From positions 1 to 64,000 of the forward strand of contig JAFUYT010000029.1 in NCBI GenBank assembly GCA_017470425.1: DNA of 64,000 bases. The letters are read 5' to 3'. Position numbers and translations under genes: made by a program. Shown piece by piece: positions 24,507 to 63,047 of this stretch. This DNA comes from Bacteroidaceae bacterium (lineage in GTDB: Bacteria; Bacteroidota; Bacteroidia; Bacteroidales; Bacteroidaceae). Numbering within the stretch: the first letter of the stretch is position 1; every line of letters begins with the position of its first letter. The notes beneath the pieces are model-generated. The model searched no databases. It saw only the letters and a list, made by a program, of their open reading frames with translations, and was not told where the DNA came from.

Positions 24507-27500
24507 TTATTTGAGTTTAATGGTTTCGCCGTCGTTGAGGAGTTGTCCGCTCTTGATGAGGCGTGCGACGCTGCGAGTGATGGCATTGTCAATGCGGGTG
24601 GTGCGGCGCTGATAGCCGAGCAGGCGGTTGGCAGCGAGCTTGATGGCATCGAGGGGCAGGGCCACTTGTTCGGTGACCACTTGCAGGACCGCCTTGTCAA
24701 TAGCATCGTCGGCAATTTCGTCGATGTCGCGCTTCTCGCCGTTGCTTTTCAGCGCCACGGGCTTCACGGCCTTTGGTTTTTCTTCTACGATACGGGGTGC
24801 AGCGAGGCTCTGTGGCTGGCGTGCTTTCCCGTCTGCCGTTCCTTCGATGGCCTGCACGATGGCGTCGAGCGTGCGCTGGCGGTGTTGCAGCCAGTCCACG
24901 CTCCAGACGCGCACCACCTTCCATCCGAGTCCCTGTAGTACGGAGGGCTGCGTCAGCTCGCGGTCGCGCGCAATCTTTGTCTCGTGGCGGGCGGGGGTGT
25001 CGATGAGGATGGCTATCAAGTAGCGGTTTGGATCGTGAGGATCAACCACTGCGACATCTACTTTAAACTTAGAACGGCCCACGTTGAGGGCGGTCTCATA
25101 GCCGAGGTTGTTGAGGGATGCCGCAATAGAAGGAGCTACTCCATCAATCACATTCTCCGCGCCAGCCTTCTCTCCTCCCTCACAGGAGGGGGCGGGGGTG
25201 GGGCTTCCTTCGGCATACTTGAGGAACTTCTGCAAGCCCTCGACACCGGCAGCCTTGCTGCGCTTGAGATCAATCTGTTCGGGACGCAGGGTGGAGAAGA
25301 CGAGCATTTCGTAGCGGGCACGTGAGACGGCCACGTTCAGGCGCCGTTCGCCGCCCCGGTTGTTCAGCGGACCGAAGTTCATCGAGACATTGCCGTCCTT
25401 ATCGGGGCCGTAGCCTACGCTGAAGAGGATCACGTCGCGCTCGTCGCCCTGTACGTTCTCCAGGTTCTTGATGAAGACGGGTTCCTCTGCCGAGAAGGCG
25501 CGTGCCTCCAGTTCAGGCTTCTTGCTGAGGGCTTCCATGAGGACATCCTCGATGAGGTTCTGTTGTGCCACCGAGAACGCCACGACGCCGATGCTGTGCT
25601 GCGAGAGTTCCTCGTCAGCGAGGCGGCGCAGGATCTCGCCCACGACAGCCTCGGCCTCGGCGCGATTGCTGCGCTTGCCACCTTTGTCATAGACGCCTTC
25701 GACGTGCACGAGCGATACCTTCTTCTGGCGGTCATCGGCTGAGGGGAAGGTGAAGAGGCGACCATCGTAGTACTCCGCATTGGAGAATGCGATGAGCGAC
25801 TCGTGCTTCGAACGGTAGTGGAACGAGAGGTAGTGGTCGGGTAGTGACAGTGCCTGGCAGTCGTCGAGGATGCTGTCAAGGTCGTCGATCTCGGCATCCT
25901 CGTCATCGACCTGCTGGACGTCGAAGAAGCTGGTGGGCGGCATCTGCTTGTTGTCGCCCACGACGATGAGGGCCTTGCCGCGCCCGATGGCGCCGACGGC
26001 TTCTGAGGTGGGCATCTGCGAGGCTTCGTCGAAGATGACGAGGTCGAACTTCGGCTGTTCCAGGTCGATGAACTGAGCTACGGAGATGGGGCTCATCAGC
26101 ATACAGGGGCACAGCTTCGGCATTAGGTTCGGGATCTGATCGATGATGGCACGGATGCTGGTGCCGCGGCCTCCGTTGGCGATGTTGCGCTTGAGGATGT
26201 TCACCTCGGAGCCTGCGGCGGCTTCGATGGTGATATTGGGGATGCGCGCCGCGAGGCGGCAGTAGAGTTCTTTCTGTGTGAGGAGCTGGAAGTGCTCTGT
26301 GAGCTGGCGATAGCGCGCGATGACGTCCTCAAAGACGAGTCCGCTGAACTGACGCAGCCGGTCGTCGGCATCGATCATCTCGAGCGTCCATTCTTTATAT
26401 AATGTACGCGCGAGCGCACGCGAGGCTTCCAGTCCGCTGTGTCCAGCCTCGATGTAATCTACAGCGCAGGAGTAGCCGCCGGCCATGAGGTCTTCGCGCT
26501 GGCTGGACCACTTGTACCAGTCGCGCCATGCTTCCTTGTGTCGCAGCCATTCATCGCTGACGGCAGGCGCGTTCACCTGTGCGAGGTCGCCAATGAAAGT
26601 GGGAATGGTGCTCTTAGTCAGGGAGGCATTGATGTGCTGAAGACGCTTGAGGAAGGCGTTAGTGGCAAAGAAACGAGGCAGGAACCATTTCTGCTGAAGC
26701 GCCTCCCATTGTGAGATGAGGGCTGCGGGCTGCTCGGCGGGCGCCGCCTTGAGCTGTTGCAGCAGCTGCTCCAGACGGGCAAGGTCATCGCGGCGGTCAC
26801 TCTTGGGTGCAAGACCTGTCAGGGGGTGCTGGTGGGGATGGCCGGTGACCTGGAAGACGGCATCAAGCTGGGTCAGCGTGCTCTCCAGCGTGGCAAGGTC
26901 CGTCTTCGTGCGGCTCTTTGCGAAGTCAAAGGGCAGATCGATGCTGTCAGCATCCGACAGGGCGAGGTAGCCTTCGATGCAGTCATAGACCGAGAGACCG
27001 CATGAGCCGGGCGTGTGCACGGCCTGCATATAGCCGTTGAGCTGCTGGCGCAGGGCGAACAGCTCCTCGGAACGCTGCTGGAAATCCTCGCTGACATGGC
27101 CGTGGGTGATGTCCAGGGCCTGCTGCATCTGTTGCAGGAAATGGGTCTTGGTGACTTTGTTGGAGTGGAGCTCCAGACAGAACGGATCGAGACCGATCTT
27201 GGCCAGACGTTTCTGCACCACCTGCAGGGCCGCCATCTTCTCGGCCACGAACAGGACGCGCTTGCCCTTGTAGAGGGCATTGGCAATCATGTTGGTGATG
27301 GTCTGCGACTTACCCGTTCCGGGAGGACCGTAGAGGATGAAGCTCTTGCCCTCGCCGCTCTCGATGACGGCTTCGAGCTGTGAGGAATCCACGCTGATGG
27401 GCGTGGCGACATCGGCGGGTGGCACGGTGAGGTCGAAGTGCCGGACATCCACGGGCGTGCCTTCCTCTTCGAGCACGAGGCGGCGCTCCACCAGGCTCTG

Positions 27501-28307
27501 TACGATGGCGTTCTGTTGGAGGAGGTCTGCATGGGTGTGGATATCGTTCCACATGACGAACTTATTGAACGAGAACAGCCCCAGTATGCTTTCTTCCAGC
27601 ACCTCCCAGCGCTCATGCTGCTCCACGACCTTGCGCATCGTGGCAAGCACCCGCGGCACATCCACGCCGCTCTCATCCTGTGGCAGCGGATTCATGGCGG
27701 GCACGAGGAGTTTGTACTGCTGGCGCAGGAACTCTACGAGGGTGATGTTCAGGATGCTCTCTTCGTCGCGCATCCGCACGAGGTAGCCGCCTCCATTGCG
27801 CACGATGTTCACGGGCAGCAGCAGGATGGGCGCGTAGCGGGGTTGATCGCTCTTCTCGGTGACATACCACTTCAGCATCCCCACGGCGATGAACAGCGCG
27901 TTGGCGCCGTTCTCTTCCAGCGCCGTGCGAGCTCCGCGATAGAGGCTGGTGAGTACGGGCTTCAGCTCCGATGGCGTGAGGTCTGTGTGCAGTTCTCCCT
28001 GCGGCATCTCTTCCTTCTCGCTCTTAGGCTGCACGGTGAAACTGTCACCCGTTTGCAGCCTGTCTTCTAAGTTGCTGATGTCCGTGACGTGCAACTGCAC
28101 GGCTCGCTTGCCAAGGCGTGTGTTCAGCAGGTTGTTGCGCAGGGAGAAGTCCAGGAGCTTGCGCTCCCAGAGCGCCTGCCGCGTGAGCTTTTGCTCATCG
28201 ACCAGCAGCGCGGCTTCGTCAAGGGACTCACCCCCAGAAGACTCTCCCCCCTTCCTCCCTATAAGGGAGGGAGCTGAATGTATTTGACCGGCAGTATTTT
28301 TTTCCAT
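24507..28307 (-). CDS. DUF4011 / superfamily 1 helicase / Vsr-like nuclease / DUF3320 protein
   Basis: A 1266-residue multidomain DNA/RNA helicase-nuclease. In order: a repeat-derived N-terminus (residues 12-23), a DUF4011-type region (about 40-300, starting RQALWERKLLDFSLRNNLLN), SF1 helicase Walker A GPPGTGKSQ (327-335), Walker B VIFDEASQ (about 757), motif III VVGDNKQMPPTS, the C-terminal motifs VQGDERDVI and RRLNVAVSRA, a PD-(D/E)xK Vsr-like nuclease region (about 1055-1150: KVDVAVVDP...YLIAILID) and a C-terminal DUF3320-like domain. Proteins of this build are often suspected of antiviral defence. A second repeat-derived stretch (SPTPAPSCEGGEK) lies before the nuclease. Its place inside a sulfate-activation operon is unexpected. 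Confidence 0.88.
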   Translation of the reverse strand: MEKNTAGQIHSAPSLIGRKGGESSGGESLDEAALLVDEQKLTRQALWERKLLDFSLRNNLLNTRLGKRAVQLHVTDISNLEDRLQTGDSFTVQPKSEKEEMPQGELHTDLTPSELKPVLTSLYRGARTALEENGANALFIAVGMLKWYVTEKSDQPRYAPILLLPVNIVRNGGGYLVRMRDEESILNITLVEFLRQQYKLLVPAMNPLPQDESGVDVPRVLATMRKVVEQHERWEVLEESILGLFSFNKFVMWNDIHTHADLLQQNAIVQSLVERRLVLEEEGTPVDVRHFDLTVPPADVATPISVDSSQLEAVIESGEGKSFILYGPPGTGKSQTITNMIANALYKGKRVLFVAEKMAALQVVQKRLAKIGLDPFCLELHSNKVTKTHFLQQMQQALDITHGHVSEDFQQRSEELFALRQQLNGYMQAVHTPGSCGLSVYDCIEGYLALSDADSIDLPFDFAKSRTKTDLATLESTLTQLDAVFQVTGHPHQHPLTGLAPKSDRRDDLARLEQLLQQLKAAPAEQPAALISQWEALQQKWFLPRFFATNAFLKRLQHINASLTKSTIPTFIGDLAQVNAPAVSDEWLRHKEAWRDWYKWSSQREDLMAGGYSCAVDYIEAGHSGLEASRALARTLYKEWTLEMIDADDRLRQFSGLVFEDVIARYRQLTEHFQLLTQKELYCRLAARIPNITIEAAAGSEVNILKRNIANGGRGTSIRAIIDQIPNLMPKLCPCMLMSPISVAQFIDLEQPKFDLVIFDEASQMPTSEAVGAIGRGKALIVVGDNKQMPPTSFFDVQQVDDEDAEIDDLDSILDDCQALSLPDHYLSFHYRSKHESLIAFSNAEYYDGRLFTFPSADDRQKKVSLVHVEGVYDKGGKRSNRAEAEAVVGEILRRLADEELSQHSIGVVAFSVAQQNLIEDVLMEALSKKPELEARAFSAEEPVFIKNLENVQGDERDVILFSVGYGPDKDGNVSMNFGPLNNRGGERRLNVAVSRARYEMLVFSTLRPEQIDLKRSKAAGVEGLQKFLKYAEGSPTPAPSCEGGEKAGAENVIDGVAPSIAASLNNLGYETALNVGRSKFKVDVAVVDPHDPNRYLIAILIDTPARHETKIARDRELTQPSVLQGLGWKVVRVWSVDWLQHRQRTLDAIVQAIEGTADGKARQPQSLAAPRIVEEKPKAVKPVALKSNGEKRDIDEIADDAIDKAVLQVVTEQVALPLDAIKLAANRLLGYQRRTTRIDNAITRSVARLIKSGQLLNDGETIKLK
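25172..25204. repeat. Solitary GC-rich palindrome inside the helicase gene
   Basis: A diverged single copy of the [12 protein letters not shown]-type element (CTCCCTCACAGGAGGGGG core), translated as SPTPAPSCEGGEKAG in the linker before the nuclease domain. Confidence 0.65.
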
Positions 28308-28383: not shown

Positions 28384-29406
28384 TTAGAAATACCCTTCGC
28401 GTTTTTTCTGTTCCATGGAGGCTTCCTGGTCGAAGTCGATGACGCGGGTGGTGCGCTCGCTCTTCGTGGTGGTCATCATCTCCTCGACGATTTCCTCAAT
28501 GGTCGTGGCGGTGCTCTCGACGGCGCCCGTCAGCGGCCAGCATCCGAGGGTGCGGAAGCGGACCATGCGAGGCTTGATGAGGGGGCGATACTGCTCGGGC
28601 AGGCGGTCGTCGTCGGCCATGATGATGTTGCCGTCGATCTCCACGCAGGGGCGTTCCTTGGCGTAGTAGAGGGGTACGATGGGGATATTCTCGAGGCGGA
28701 TGTACTGCCAGATGTCGAGCTCCGTCCAGTTGGAGAGGGGGAACACGCGGATGCTCTCGCCCTTGTGGATGCGGGCATTGTAGATGTCCCAGAGCTCAGG
28801 GCGCTGGTTCTTGGGATCCCATTGCTGGAACTGGTCGCGGAACGAGAAGATGCGTTCCTTGGCGCGGCTCTTCTCCTCGTCGCGGCGGGCACCGCCGAAG
28901 GCGGCGTCGAACTTGTACTTGTTCAAGGCGTCGAGCAGGGCCTTGGTTTTCATCAGGTCGGTGTGTACCTTGGAGCCGTGGGTGAAGGGACCTACACCGG
29001 CGTTGAAGGCTTCCATATTGCTCTCGACGATGAGGTTCCAGCCGTACTTCTTGGCGTACTCGTCGCGGAACTGGATCATCTCCTTGAACTTCCACTTCGA
29101 GTCGATGTGCATCAGGGGGAAGGGTACCTTGCCGGGGGCAAAGGCTTTCTCAGCCAGGCGCACCATGACGGAGCTGTCCTTGCCGATACTGTAGAGCATG
29201 ACGGGGTTCTCGAACTCAGCCGCCACTTCGCGGATGATGTGGATGCTTTCGGCTTCGAGTTCTTGGAGGTGGGATAGGACCCCACCCCCCTGCCCATGAA
29301 GGTGAGTAGCGACCCCACCCCCCTGCCCCTCCCGAGGGAGGGGAGTAGATACTTTTGATAGATTAGATAGATTATTATCCATGTTATTATTCATATTATT
29401 GTCCAT
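28384..29406 (-). CDS. cysD: Sulfate adenylyltransferase subunit 2
   Basis: The catalytic ATP-pyrophosphatase subunit of ATP sulfurylase; with CysN it makes adenosine phosphosulfate. The 340-residue protein has the PP-loop region [14 protein letters not shown] (about 69-82), conserved [12 protein letters not shown], and the family C-terminus [13 protein letters not shown]. CysD normally begins a few residues before [13 protein letters not shown]; here about 46 residues precede it. They consist of an Asn-rich run ([12 protein letters not shown]) and repeat-derived peptides ([13 protein letters not shown] at 20-32, then HGQGGGV). The start codon lies inside the 600-bp DUF559 unit. It is 7 bp after the DUF559 gene. 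Confidence 0.95.
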
Positions 29407-29413
29407 TTATCAT

Positions 29414-29788
29414 TTATTGTTCGATTAAATCATATATTTGGTCAAGCACGGCATCGATATCTGTAAATATCTCTTTATTGGTGAAGCGAATTACAGTGAA
29501 GCCCATTGCATTGAGGTCTTTCGTTCGGAGAGTGTCAGCCTCTTGCTGTTCAATTTCGTCGTGATATTCACCATCGACTTCTATTACAAATTGTTTTTCC
29601 AGGCAGACGAAATCAACGATATAGTCTCCAATGATATGTTGTCGATTGAACTTAACACCCAACTGTTTACTCTTGATATGTTCCCACAAAATACTCTCTG
29701 CATCGGTAGGAAACTTTTTTTGCCTTTTTGCGAACTCCTTTAGCAGTAAATAGCGATCAGGTGCTGCTGTGTTATATGCCTGCTTCAT
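29414..29788 (-). CDS. DUF559 (Vsr/PD-(D/E)xK-like) endonuclease-domain protein
   Basis: A 124-residue stand-alone protein of the DUF559 family, related to very-short-patch-repair and restriction nucleases. Key stretch: ESILWEHIKSKQLGVKFNRQ, then the probable active-site region DYIVDFVCLEKQFVIEVDGEYH (Asp, Glu-x-Asp), then NAMGFTVIRFTN. No signal peptide. The gene is clearly more AT-rich than its neighbours, a sign of recent arrival. It stands between cysC and cysD and is framed by near-identical 38-bp inverted palindromes. It may be the protein that mobilises or maintains those palindromes, or only a passenger. Confidence 0.88.
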   Translation of the reverse strand: MKQAYNTAAPDRYLLLKEFAKRQKKFPTDAESILWEHIKSKQLGVKFNRQHIIGDYIVDFVCLEKQFVIEVDGEYHDEIEQQEADTLRTKDLNAMGFTVIRFTNKEIFTDIDAVLDQIYDLIEQ

Positions 29789-29820
29789 CCTTATGATGCT
29801 GTGTTATATGCCTGCTTCAT
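29766..29820. repeat. 23-bp direct duplication over the DUF559 start codon
   Basis: GCTGTGTTATATGCCTGC plus TTCAT occurs at 29766-29788 and 29798-29820, 32 bp apart. On the minus strand both copies begin with ATG. The upstream copy starts a frame that stops after nine codons, so only the second start yields the nuclease. Confidence 0.8.
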
Positions 29821-29872
29821 TCTTAAGAGCAATTTGCAGTTTGACAAGACCTTGCAATAGTTTTATAGGTAA

Positions 29873-30493
29873 CTACTCCCCTCCCTCGGGAGGGGCAGGG
29901 GGGAGGGGTCTCCGTTCAATCAGTTCCACCACCCGCCCCACGCTCACCTCCAGCGGCAGCTGACTTGTATCAATGTCGAGCGCTGGATGCTTGGGCGCTT
30001 CGAAGGGGGCGCTGATGCCGGTGAAGTCTTTCACTTCACCGCGGCGGGCGCGGGCATAGAGCCCTTTGACATCGCGGCGCTCACATTCCTCCAGCGGGGT
30101 AGAGATGTAGATCTCAAAGAAGTCGTCGGCGCCGATGATGTCGCGTGCCAGCTGGCGGTACTCGTTGGTGGGCGATACGAAGGCGGCGAGGGTGACGATG
30201 CCAGTATCCACGAAGAGCTTGCCCACCTCGGCGATGCGGCGGATGTTCTCGCGACGATCCTCAGCACTGAAGCCGAGGCCAGCGTTGATGCCCGTGCGGA
30301 TGTTGTCGCCGTCGAGGATGCGGCAGAGGATGCCGCGCCGGTGCAGCTCGCGCTCCACACCTATGGCCACGGTGCTCTTGCCCGAGCCGGACAAGCCCGT
30401 GAACCAGATCATCATGCCGCGCTGGTGAAGCAGTTGCTCCTTATCCTCGCGCGTCATCATGCGATCGTATATGGGATAGATGTTGTTGTCCAT
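29873..30493 (-). CDS. cysC: Adenylylsulfate kinase (APS kinase)
   Basis: Phosphorylates adenosine phosphosulfate at the 3' position to give PAPS, the donor used by sulfotransferases. 206 residues with the P-loop GLSGSGKST (about 33-41), RILDGDNIRTGIN, FVSPTNEYRQLARDIIG and DVKGLYARARRGEVKDFTGI. The last 12 residues ([11 protein letters not shown] after ELIERR) and the TAG stop come from the inverted palindrome of the DUF559 unit, so the native C-terminus was replaced or cut. It starts on the stop codon of the SLC13 gene (1-nt overlap, TAATG), showing coupling of sulfate uptake and activation. Confidence 0.96.
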   Translation of the reverse strand: MDNNIYPIYDRMMTREDKEQLLHQRGMMIWFTGLSGSGKSTVAIGVERELHRRGILCRILDGDNIRTGINAGLGFSAEDRRENIRRIAEVGKLFVDTGIVTLAAFVSPTNEYRQLARDIIGADDFFEIYISTPLEECERRDVKGLYARARRGEVKDFTGISAPFEAPKHPALDIDTSQLPLEVSVGRVVELIERRPLPPAPPEGGE

Positions 30494-40612: not shown

Positions 40613-42481
40613 ATGGCTGCTGTCAACCCTTTTCTGCAAGTAGATAACCTCACGTTCGCCGTGGGCGATAAAGTGCTGTTCCGTGATGTCAGCTTCGGCA
40701 TCGCCGAGGGGCAGCGTGTGGGGCTGATTGCACAGAATGGGGCAGGGAAGTCGTCGCTGCTGAAGCTCATCGCGGGCGAGGAGGAGCCGGAGAGCGGCAG
40801 TGTCACCTTCCGTCGCGACCTGCGCGTGGCTTACCTCGAACAGACGCCCGTCTATCCACAGGAGATGACGGTCATGGAGGCTTGTCTCTGGCAGTGCCGC
40901 GAGGAGCCGCGACGCATCCAGGAGTACCTGACAAAGCTCCACATCACCGACCACGACCAGCCCATCAGCCACCTCTCCGGTGGACAGCTGAAGCGCGTGG
41001 CGCTGGCCAACGTGCTGTGCCGCGAGCCGGATATGCTCATCCTGGACGAGCCCACGAACCATCTGGACCTGACGATGATCGAGTGGCTGGAGACCTATCT
41101 ATCGCGGTCGAGCATGACGCTCCTCATGGTCACCCACGACCGCTACTTCCTCGACCGCGTCTGCAACCTCATCCTGGAACTCGACAACCAGACGCTTTAC
41201 ACCTATCGCGGCAACTACGCCTACTATCTGGAGAAGCGCCAGGAGCGCATCGACGTGACCAATGCCGCCATCGCGCGCGCGAATAATTTATATAGGAGTG
41301 AACTGGAGTGGATGCGGCGTATGCCACAGGCGCGCGGTCACAAGGCGCGCTACCGCGAGGAAGCCTTTGAGGATCTGGAACGGCGCGCCAAGCAGCGCGT
41401 CGAGGAGAAAGCCGTCTCGCTGCAGGTGAACAGCACCTATATCGGCTCGAAGATCTTCGAGGCGCAGTACGTCTCCAAGACATTCCCGCCGCGACCCGAG
41501 GAGCCCGCCTCCGTGGAGCGCGTTATCCTGAAGGACTTCTACTACAACTTCTCGCGCTACGAGAAGATGGGCATCGTGGGCGCCAACGGCACCGGCAAGA
41601 GTACCTTCATCAAGATGCTCCTCGGGCTTGTGTCGCCGGACAGCGGGCGCTTCGTCGTCGGTGAGACTGTCCGCTTCGGTTATTTCTCGCAGGAAGGGAT
41701 GCAGTTCAACCAGGAGATGAAGGTCATCGATGCCGTGCGGCAGGTGGCGGAGTACGTAGATCTCGGCGGTGGTCGCCATCTCACGGCCATGCAGTTCCTG
41801 CAGCACTTCCTCTTCACGCCCCTCCAGCAGCAGAACTACATCTACAAGCTCTCCGGCGGCGAGCGTCGCCGCCTGTACCTGTGCACCGTGCTGATGCAGA
41901 ACCCCAACTTCCTCATCCTCGACGAGCCTACCAACGACCTCGACATCGTGACCCTCAACATCCTCGAGGACTATCTGAAGAACTTCCGCGGCTGCGTCAT
42001 CGTCGTCAGTCACGACCGCTACTTCATGGACAAGGTGGTCGATCACCTCCTCGTCTTCCAGGGTGACGGTGTCGTAAAGGACTTTCCGGGGAATTATACG
42101 CAGTATAAGGAATGGGAACGGACTCTCCCCCCGCCCTCCCTTTTAGGGCGGGAGCAGAATCCGTCAAGAAATAGAGGCAAAGAGAAAATCCCAAGTAATG
42201 ATAGCCGCTCTGGTCAGGTAACCGCTCCCTCCCTTATAGGGAGGGCGGGGGGAGAGTCTTCTCCTCGCCGTCTCACCTTCAAAGAGCGCAAGGAGACGGA
42301 AGCCTTGGAGACCGATATTGCTGCCCTTGAGGCAGAGAAGAAGTCGCTGGAGACGGCTCTCTGCAGCGGCACCCTCTCCGTGGCTGAGCTCACCGAGAAG
42401 AGCAAGCGCCTCCCGCTGCTCCAGGAAGAGCTCGATGAGAAAGAGATGCGCTGGTTGGAGCTGTCGGAGATAGGAGGGTAG
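40613..42481 (+). CDS. ABC-F family ATP-binding cassette protein
   Basis: Soluble protein with two ABC ATPase domains and no membrane part, of the kind that acts on the ribosome (Uup/EttA-like). The start at 40613 (MAAVNPFLQVDNLTFAVGD) gives 622 residues. Domain 1: Walker A GQNGAGKSS-like AQNGAGKSS, signature LSGGQLKR, LDEPTNHLD. Linker with RARGHKARYREE. Domain 2: ANGTGKST, LSGGERRR, LDEPTNDLD. Residues about 503-549 are a 46-codon inserted palindrome element (TLPPPSLLGREQ ... APSLIGRAGGESS) between domain 2 and the C-terminal coiled coil (ALETDIAALEAEKKSLETAL). A TACTTTCG box at 40554-40561 may be its -7 element. Confidence 0.93.
   Translation: MAAVNPFLQVDNLTFAVGDKVLFRDVSFGIAEGQRVGLIAQNGAGKSSLLKLIAGEEEPESGSVTFRRDLRVAYLEQTPVYPQEMTVMEACLWQCREEPRRIQEYLTKLHITDHDQPISHLSGGQLKRVALANVLCREPDMLILDEPTNHLDLTMIEWLETYLSRSSMTLLMVTHDRYFLDRVCNLILELDNQTLYTYRGNYAYYLEKRQERIDVTNAAIARANNLYRSELEWMRRMPQARGHKARYREEAFEDLERRAKQRVEEKAVSLQVNSTYIGSKIFEAQYVSKTFPPRPEEPASVERVILKDFYYNFSRYEKMGIVGANGTGKSTFIKMLLGLVSPDSGRFVVGETVRFGYFSQEGMQFNQEMKVIDAVRQVAEYVDLGGGRHLTAMQFLQHFLFTPLQQQNYIYKLSGGERRRLYLCTVLMQNPNFLILDEPTNDLDIVTLNILEDYLKNFRGCVIVVSHDRYFMDKVVDHLLVFQGDGVVKDFPGNYTQYKEWERTLPPPSLLGREQNPSRNRGKEKIPSNDSRSGQVTAPSLIGRAGGESSPRRLTFKERKETEALETDIAALEAEKKSLETALCSGTLSVAELTEKSKRLPLLQEELDEKEMRWLELSEIGG
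42121..42258. mobile_element. 138-bp inverted-repeat element in frame inside the ABC-F gene
   Basis: Arms 42121-42155 and 42224-42258 (35 bp, 32 identical when one is reversed) begin GACTCTCCCCCC. Each arm is itself palindromic (CCCTCCCTATAAGGGAGGG type). The 68-bp interior is more AT-rich. The total length is a multiple of three and no stop is present. It resembles a short non-autonomous transposable element or a REPIN doublet. Confidence 0.7.
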
Positions 42482-62258: not shown

Positions 62259-62867
62259 TTACTTTCTTAATTCCTGTTCGTGGTTGCAGTAGTGGCAGCG
62301 GATGATTCCCGTCTGCTTGTTGGTGACGTGGAAGAATGTCTGCATGGGCTCGTTGTTGGTGATGCACTTGGGGTTGTTGCATCGCACGATGCCGCGCAGC
62401 TCGTCGGGCAGGCATACCTGCTTCTTCTCCACGACCTCGTAGTCGCGGATGATGGTGAGCGTGACGTTGGGCGCCACGACGGAAAGTTGGTTCAGCTCAT
62501 CGTCGGTGAAGAAGCGGTCGGCAATCTTGATGATGCTCTTCGTGCCCATCTTGTGGGACTTGAGGTTGAAGCCGATCGTCACCTTGCTCGTCATCTGGTC
62601 GAGGTGCAGCAGGTTGATGACCTCAAAGAGGCGGTCGCAGGGGATATGGTCGATGACGGTGCCGTGATCGAGGGCGGAGACGATGAGAGACCGGGAAGCC
62701 CCACTCTCAGAGACCCCACCCCCTTGCCCCTCCCGGGGGAGGGGAGTAGAAGCAGAGACCCCACCCCCTTGCCCCTCCCGAGGGAGGGGAGTAGAAGCAG
62801 AGACCCCACCCCCTTGCCCCTCCCGAGGGAGGGGAGTAGTATGTGATTGACTAAGAGTTTTTTTCAT
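62259..62867 (-). CDS. pyrI: Aspartate carbamoyltransferase regulatory subunit with repeat-derived N-terminus
   Basis: Nucleotide-binding regulatory chain of aspartate transcarbamoylase. The normal protein (about 150 residues) begins near [20 protein letters not shown]; the zinc cysteines are in RCNNPKC and RCHYC. Here about 57 residues precede the conserved part, including three copies of [12 protein letters not shown] with period 15 residues (10-52), encoded by three 45-bp repeats at 62712-62839. The start at 62867 ([10 protein letters not shown]) is the only ATG upstream of the core, so the repeats must be translated unless a non-ATG start is used. The N-terminal extension is close to the allosteric nucleotide site. 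Confidence 0.93.
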
Positions 62868-63047
62868 TGCGTAGAAAATTATAATATCTATAATAAATTA
62901 ACAGTTGTAATAAATAAACAGTTCTTGAAAGGTATTTACTCCCCTCCCTCGGGAGGGGCAGGGGGGTGGGGTCTTACTCCCCTCCCTCGGGAGGGGTTGG
63001 GGGTGGGGTCTTACTCCCCTCCCTCGGGAGGGGTTGGGGGTGGGGTC
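62712..63047. repeat. Triple inverted palindromes around the pyrI start codon
   Basis: Three 38-bp copies with 45-bp period (62712-62749, 62757-62794, 62802-62839) face three inverted copies of 37-38 bp (62936-62973, 62974-63010, 63011-63047). A 96-bp AT-rich interior (62840-62935) holds the pyrI start codon. The copies match the inverted repeats of the DUF559 unit. Confidence 0.85.

Follow-up and report, generated by a model that had tools for sequence, protein, structure and literature searches.

A DUF559 nuclease gene between inverted hairpin arms at a cysC-cysD junction: a candidate mobile element with nuclease-less relatives in a Bacteroidaceae genome

What is a 600-bp unit that ends one gene and begins the next, and how did it come to lie between them? 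The question is raised by the window analysed here (the whole stretch of 64,000 nucleotides, positions 1 to 64,000 of contig JAFUYT010000029.1 in the Bacteroidaceae bacterium assembly GCA_017470425.1), in which a nuclease gene of the DUF559 family, enclosed by two inverted palindromic arms, occupies the junction of cysC and cysD. We consider it probable that this unit (29311-29910) is a copy of a mobile element, in which two inverted C/T-G/A hairpin arms surround the DUF559 gene in a logic akin to that of REPINs (REP doublets forming hairpins, where REP stands for repetitive extragenic palindrome) and RAYTs (REP-associated tyrosine transposases), with a nuclease of homing type in the place of the enzyme. 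Comparison between loci shows, as far as sequence allows, that the unit is present at some orthologous sites and absent from others, that arms and nuclease share a history, that nuclease-less derivatives exist and that reading frames are kept through the unit; that DUF559 itself would be what moves it is something we infer.

The arms of the unit are 42 nt long and 95% complementary. The preliminary description of this locus had reported two 38-bp inverted repeats that match at 37 positions, and this 38-nt core was found again (37/38, one position differing); the repeats had also been called palindromic, which is true of the 18 nt that form a hairpin in each arm (CCCCTCCC-GA-GGGAGGGG, 8-bp stem, 2-nt loop) and not of all 38. 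A single DUF559 open reading frame (ORF) lies between the arms, on the minus strand that also carries cysC and cysD; it matches PF04480 with 119.5 bits (curated cut-off 20.6) and has a guanine-plus-cytosine content (GC) of 0.39 versus 0.59 for the window, in keeping with the one AT-rich DUF559 gene described earlier. The end of cysC at 29873 falls in the right arm and the start of cysD at 29406 falls inside the unit, and relatives with an empty junction open cysD with codons of their own (L193 is an example), which bears out the earlier claim that the unit provides the stop codon and tail of cysC together with the start codon and N-terminus of cysD. A 32-nt tandem duplication (94% identical, window 29762-29825) spans the start of the DUF559 gene and the stretch upstream of it.

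The same junction was surveyed in 31 cysC loci (30 from a search of the genus, plus L112), in 26 of which cysD adjoins. Full units are found in two of these 26 junctions (the window and L112, whose DUF559 is 76% identical to that of the window), a nuclease-less palindrome pair in one (L197), and no polar hairpin in the remaining 23, so that the empty site which the preliminary description had expected in relatives does exist. The pair in L197 consists of two inverted palindromes, of which the right one folds perfectly and belongs to a different sequence type, and the left one has a mismatch in its stem. In all three occupied junctions the cysC stop and the cysD start of the empty relatives are gone and the unit supplies both, from which it follows that target bases were replaced. 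Three of the unit-free junctions (L196, L200 and L201) hold other short tandem repeats (e.g. GCATAAGACATCTGAAA in L201) that are unlike the palindromes.

Occupied and empty alleles recur at other sites (the hosts MetH, LeuS, ValS and gmk, here and below, are presumably what we call them, having been named from known motifs, LeuS also by its model). Among 29 readable loci from a single genus, the MetH linker holds the unit in 6 and is empty in 23 (one further locus was unreadable). A loop of RecG holds it in 2 of 36 loci and is empty in 34, six of the 36 (one filled locus among them) having been chosen by open-frame length. At the start of gmk, 5 of 30 loci were read as filled: four show a fusion of gmk with residues of DUF559, and the remaining one (L264, in genome G020) has several arm copies, with a DUF559 match that contains an internal stop codon (L013) just upstream by coordinates.

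Framing by inverted arms is a common property of DUF559 genes in Bacteroidota. PF04480 is matched five times in the source genome (2.4 Mb, 72% complete), and all five genes lie between inverted arms (32-49 nt, 87-97% complementary) that match within a locus and differ between loci. For a wider view, 183 DUF559 loci were collected. They came from the source genome together with 40 relatives, from 395 sampled genomes of the phylum and from contigs with names, the named loci being the best 80 of 372 (the 40 loci L072-L111 were picked by hand among the matches listed). Thirteen loci were excluded for failure of the motif search (L004, L022, L023, L048, L065, L068, L073, L133, L141, L150, L155, L165 and L181; L004, L048 and L065 have matched arms, L022, L023 and L068 are without them, and the other seven are unscored) and four more for short flanks, which left 166 analysable ones. 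Since the set contains near-duplicates (L113/L114, L012/L132), the counts are not independent. When the left flank was aligned against the reversed right flank, the framing threshold (a score of at least 30) was reached by 119 of the 166 loci. Of 886 pseudo-centres placed in these loci 6 reached it, and so did 207 of the 2475 mismatched pairs, in which the left and right flanks came from different loci. A score of 36 was reached by 22/30 loci from near relatives, 25/63 from the phylum-wide sample and 45/73 of the named loci, hence framing is common but not universal. In loci scoring at least 30, a hairpin is present in 209 of 232 arms (81 different stems) versus 76 of 1160 shuffled arms; the 5' stem, on the outward side, is mostly pyrimidine, and the stem sequence varies with its pairing retained. 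Chance as the cause of framing and hairpins is ruled out by the pseudo-centre, mismatched-pair and shuffle controls, among which other gene families or small genes did not figure.

The palindromes are also found away from any nuclease gene. Within the window, the 18-nt hairpin has 16 matches with at most 3 mismatches (8 places, each on both strands; 0.07 expected), and strictly polar G/C-rich hairpins number 10, as compared to 0 to 2 in five shuffles. Outside the unit, six of the polar hairpins lie at pyrI (62727-63033), one where a large DUF4011/AAA helicase ORF starts and one within an ABC-F-like ORF; these are the very genes in which the preliminary description had placed nuclease-free and related palindromes (Table 1). 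Genome-wide, the pattern CCCCTCCC-N1-6-GGGAGGGG occurs 87 times (0 for the reversed control), with only five nuclease genes. The first 50 of the 87 listed sites comprise 29 singles and nine close clusters, and seven of the nine have outer loops that are exactly complementary to each other, as is the case for 47 of 1225 random pairs; two of the seven are DUF559 units. Furthermore, the spacer of the pyrI unit is homologous to that of a nuclease-less unit at the start of a gene read as argB (L034), with 59 of 67 aligned bases identical, start codon included (score 84, maximum 33 in 300 shuffles). These are therefore two copies of one nuclease-less element at two genes, which lends substance to the earlier picture of a parent element with short offspring. 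Among five spacers this is the one related pair, as the spacers of the nuclease-less units L035 and L197 gave no clear alignment with each other or with the window unit. A subterminal motif common to nuclease and nuclease-less units (TACCTTTCAAGA) found no support (7/75, versus 2/75 when shuffled). Arms can be stacked, with three in tandem per side at pyrI (62712-63047), several at gmk (L264) and nested pairs in cyanobacterial plasmids (L253, L325), and this suggests repeated insertion at, or slippage of, unit ends. The helicase ORF (24507-28307, minus strand) has an MTES_1575 nuclease domain (PF18741) at its C-terminus; DUF559, too, matches this family, just below the cut-off.

Table 1. Positions in the window of the cysC-cysD unit, of its neighbours and of nuclease-less palindromes
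Feature	Position	Strand	Remarks
Left inverted arm	29311..29352	+	42 nt, 95% complementary to 29869-29910; 38-nt core 29311-29348, hairpin 29326-29343
Right inverted arm	29869..29910	-	pairs with left arm; hairpin 29878-29895
DUF559 nuclease gene	29414..29788	-	124 aa, GC 0.39, PF04480 E 7.5e-35
cysD (PAPS_reduct domain)	28384..29406	-	start codon and N-terminal extension supplied by unit
cysC (APS_kinase)	29873..30493	-	stop codon and tail supplied by right arm
Degenerate outer copy of left arm	29278..29295	+	33 nt outside intact arm
Nuclease-less unit at pyrI	62712..63047	.	three arms on each side of a spacer, the two sets in opposite orientations; PyrI domains
Spacer of pyrI unit	62835..62935	-	holds ATG opening extended pyrI; homologous to spacer of L034 unit
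Single hairpin, in frame near start of DUF4011/AAA helicase ORF	28254..28270	-	
Single hairpin, in frame in ABC-F-like ORF	42227..42245	+	

Arms and nuclease have a history in common. Across 6565 locus pairs without a detected common neighbour gene, DUF559 identity correlates with arm similarity (Spearman 0.36; maximum 0.136 in 999 permutations), and likewise in the 66 loci without recognised host genes (0.40; permutation maximum 0.28), a covariation that the preliminary description had foreseen. Vertical inheritance alone is ruled out as its source by the restriction to pairs without common neighbours, which covers about 1.3 kb per side only. Within the group L003, L015, L140 and L153, for example, all six pairs have DUF559 75-83% identical, arms 0.68-0.88 alike and no common neighbour genes, and the extreme is reached by L140/L153, in which nucleases 83% identical are found with matching arms beside different neighbours. 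Moreover, where one site is filled in different species, the arms within a unit are more alike than the cross-species arms in 67 of 98 pairs (medians 0.74 vs 0.50), which suggests that the two arms of a unit are kept matched to each other. The ratio of nonsynonymous to synonymous substitution rates of DUF559 lies at 0.04-0.22 in 13 of 25 pairs (the unsaturated ones), and the nuclease is accordingly under purifying selection. L143 and L157 have identical neighbour genes with the sides of DUF559 swapped, as though the unit had flipped between its inverted arms.

The association extends beyond Bacteroidota. A plasmid collection yielded 39 matching records, and of the 18 loci taken by hand among the 30 matches listed, ten are framed at a score of 30 (versus 5/126 pseudo-centres and 52/306 mismatched pairs), belonging to Cyanobacteriota (3), Deinococcota (4) and Pseudomonadota (3); the proposal that DUF559 genes elsewhere would be enriched in flanking palindromes is thus upheld both inside and outside the phylum. 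The arms reach 56 nt (98%) in Deinococcus psychrotolerans and 114 nt (96%) in pSymB of Sinorhizobium meliloti (L331), where each arm contains an inverted palindrome pair; the layout of L331 looks as though DUF559 sat between two nuclease-less units. In plasmids of three Deinococcus species (L255, L326, L335), DUF559 sits in the same hpa (4-hydroxyphenylacetate) gene cluster, each time at a different junction. An inverted repeat pair with both members on a single side of the DUF559 gene is present in L327-L330, L332 and L333, an arrangement that, under a strict definition of paired hairpins, is seen in 5/18 loci and in 3/108 blocks elsewhere in those loci. In Escherichia coli K-12 MG1655, the 3' end of the ycjD gene (b1289; L336, 1348500-1353500) and the stretch behind it carry a pair of palindromes (25 nt, 80% complementary). 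For the K-12 fabI-ycjD stretch, distal palindrome included, the median number of matching places per E. coli genome is 16, and for the 56-nt proximal palindrome from a different E. coli strain it is 17; we take this repeat to be the one called 'boxC'.

The kind of enzyme that DUF559 is can be judged from its similarities. The DUF559 profile matched four entries among solved structures, namely 3hrl (endonuclease-like protein, E 5e-33), 3r3p (mobile intron protein, E 7.8e-8), which we take to be I-Bth0305I, and two PvuRts1I structures (E 0.01), and its weak matches in PADLOC and PHROGs include a homing endonuclease and an HNH endonuclease. Invariant residues of DUF559 include D59, E70, D72 and H76, which, going by known families, we assume to form a putative PD-(D/E)xK/Vsr-like active site; an EVDG motif is conserved as well. 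Judged by these similarities, the window DUF559 is a relative of Vsr/EDxHD-type enzymes, and the nearest characterised enzyme is a homing endonuclease. A Y1 transposase (PF01797) has no match in the source genome, at 72% completeness; among 15 genomes of the genus, 4 have a Y1_Tnp match, which is strong in a single case (G013). With a PF04480 gene, no Y1 match and dispersed inverted pairs in the same genome, the earlier suggestion of a RAYT/REPIN-like logic that employs another enzyme class is supported.

The alternative that survives best, and that we nonetheless judge unlikely, is that the palindromes are the mobile parts and are moved by another agent (e.g. a RAYT-like enzyme), DUF559 being a passenger or a homing parasite that landed in their pairs. 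It would account for hairpins outnumbering nuclease genes and for the palindrome pairs that lack a nuclease, it could draw on the Y1_Tnp matches in the genus, and it is consistent with the atypical secondary structures said, in excerpts of PMC6006769, to flank Y1/RAYT-type genes in Bacteroidetes. It sits poorly with the lack of a Y1_Tnp match in the (incomplete) source genome, with the tracking of arm sequence and DUF559 sequence across loci, with an arm-DUF559 association in four phyla and with the GTAG tag, which stands 5' of the hairpin in none of the 209 arms.

Units are not confined to gene junctions. A rule based on open-frame length placed 52 of 170 DUF559 ORFs (from samples that are not random) inside a longer frame, 7 in upstream fusions only, 5 in downstream fusions only and 106 in free frames. 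Pfam scans of 14 ORFs confirmed as hosts RecG, methylmalonyl-CoA mutase, a MiaB-type protein, MazG, an ABC-F-type protein, GH31, a UvrD-type helicase, HsdR and other restriction or methylase proteins, and a class I tRNA synthetase host is read as IleS; no Hint or intein domain was found at E 1e-5 in these scans. In RecG the unit occupies one site in 17 loci. Inside LeuS, MetH and RecG the reading frames run through both arms, which are translated as linkers (SPSPSQREG-like, LPSGEVGGA) with ends rich in Pro, Gly and Ser. Four genomes that have a LeuS insert contain no leuS above the cut-off other than the interrupted frame (1086-1251 aa), hence the cells presumably make this essential enzyme with the insert in place. 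In the DUF559 tree (built on few columns, with many unresolved forks), the rows from RecG (17), MetH (8), HsdR (4) and gmk (3) each fall on one side of a branch (support 93-99), and those from LeuS site A (4), ValS (3) and LeuS site B (2) do not form single groups, a pattern that for these last three fits repeated arrival.

These host genes lend some appeal to the idea that DUF559 genes are ordinary homing endonuclease genes at conserved sites, which spread between alleles by homology of the flanks and for which the palindromes are tolerated linkers or terminators. The similarity to 3r3p, the weak PADLOC match to a homing endonuclease, the insertion into conserved genes and the same-site groups in RecG, MetH, HsdR and gmk are all as this idea would have it. 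We hold it to be quite improbable, in view of related nucleases with matching arms beside different neighbours (L140/L153), of the dispersed nuclease-less pairs with complementary loops, of arms that resemble each other more within a unit than across species, and of the LeuS site A, LeuS site B and ValS rows that are not one group each. Very improbable, finally, is that the arms are regulatory hairpins (terminators, attenuators or stabilisers of mRNA) of any small AT-rich gene and that no mobile element exists, for, in spite of hairpins that lie at gene ends like REPs and terminators and of controls that held no separate set of other small genes, the idea conflicts with the excess of framed loci over control positions (119/166 vs 6/886), with presence and absence at orthologous sites and with frames that continue through both arms in LeuS, MetH and RecG, where a terminator would harm the host gene.

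If the unit is a mobile element of DUF559, its spread may be pictured as follows. DUF559 would recognise the cognate hairpin or arm and would cut or nick DNA at the target or at an older hairpin; host repair would then, in the manner of homing, fill the break with a copy of the unit or of just the palindrome pair, and cognate palindrome pairs might be copied in trans by the same enzyme, as REPINs are thought to be by RAYT. The in-frame copies would be what selection leaves, given that the ends are translatable and copies can persist on that account at gene ends and inside genes.

Several points weigh against a mobile element of this kind. No excision, movement or cleavage was observed, and as a nuclease cannot paste DNA alone, the copying step needs host repair. 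The excess of 87 hairpins over five nuclease genes could mean that another agent spreads the hairpins. Framing falls below the threshold in 47 of the 166 loci, and the modest share of the phylum-wide sample that attains a score of 36 (only 25/63) implies many DUF559 genes with weak arms or none; E. coli ycjD is likewise unframed (L332, score 20) and lies beside its palindromes rather than between them. By eye, no target-site duplication was recognised at cysC-cysD, MetH or RecG, where target bases appear replaced. The one-branch pattern of RecG, MetH, HsdR and gmk fits an old insertion followed by descent as well as it fits homing, and the copies in RecG, like those in MetH, resemble a single clade, so that at some sites the unit may have stayed for a long time without moving.

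A wider reading, on which our belief and our doubt are close to balanced, is that a class of mobile DNA, pan-bacterial in range, has DUF559 proteins for its enzymes, C/T-G/A hairpins for its ends and nuclease-less offspring of its own; it would include the E. coli ycjD repeat and would enter essential proteins in frame without splicing. Such entry would be possible because the ends can be read as flexible linkers, the nuclease becoming an inserted domain of LeuS, RecG, MetH and others. If true, a large family still named 'unknown function' would gain a role, the dispersed palindromic repeats of several phyla would gain a candidate partner enzyme, and there would be mobile DNA whose spread relies on a nuclease, not on a transposase, and which persists within essential genes as a translated, linker-framed domain. 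With ycjD and the repeat next to it, E. coli K-12 offers a related case, so the idea is directly testable there.

The palindrome-framed DUF559 genes point to a kind of mobile DNA that seems so far to have gone undescribed. In the open full-text literature, no paper recognisable by title or start of abstract deals with DUF559 framed by palindromes (subscription papers were outside the search); the word DUF559 occurs in 14 papers there. With classical insertion sequences and miniature inverted-repeat transposable elements (MITEs) the units share terminal inverted repeats common to gene-bearing and gene-less copies. With inteins they share an endonuclease domain in frame within conserved proteins, from which they differ in ends that are predicted Pro/Gly/Ser-rich linkers, with no Hint domain detected (E 1e-5, 14 host ORFs). 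The likeness to EDxHD homing endonucleases (I-Bth0305I) and to free-standing ones lies in the similarity to 3r3p, in the conserved host genes and in the occupied and empty alleles; I-Bth0305I has an extended DNA-binding region, according to excerpts of PMC3943268, which the window DUF559 (124 aa) lacks, and the palindromic arms and dispersed nuclease-less copies set the units apart further, no intron or intein having been found. Rickettsia palindromic elements (RPEs) and intragenic REPs or MITEs are described, in parts of PMC3733652 and PMC10969869, as in-frame palindromes within coding genes; DUF559 units likewise insert in frame into coding genes, and differ in that the full unit encodes a nuclease domain. 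For the CGTC-tagged repeats (to which RPE-4 and RPE-6 correspond) the portion of PMC3733652 that treats them reports no associated transposase gene, and the CGTC tag occurs in only 7 of 209 DUF559 arms. The closest working analogue is REPIN/RAYT (REPtrons, IS200/IS605-type TnpA_REP), in which, as outlined in excerpts of PMC3116915, PMC8266576 and PMC6006769, one enzyme gene lies beside or between palindromes, inverted pairs and singles are dispersed, and the type of palindrome follows the type of enzyme. The enzyme gene with palindromes and the dispersed inverted pairs of the type found at the DUF559 gene have their counterparts here. The arms are not GTAG-tagged REPs (no 5' tag in any hairpin arm; GTAG is 3' of the hairpin in 17), and the enzyme is a DUF559 nuclease (PF04480) where theirs is an HUH tyrosine transposase. 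Furthermore, REPtrons are said, in a passage of PMC6006769, not to transpose as a unit, whereas in the loci compared here nuclease and arms are found together at many sites.

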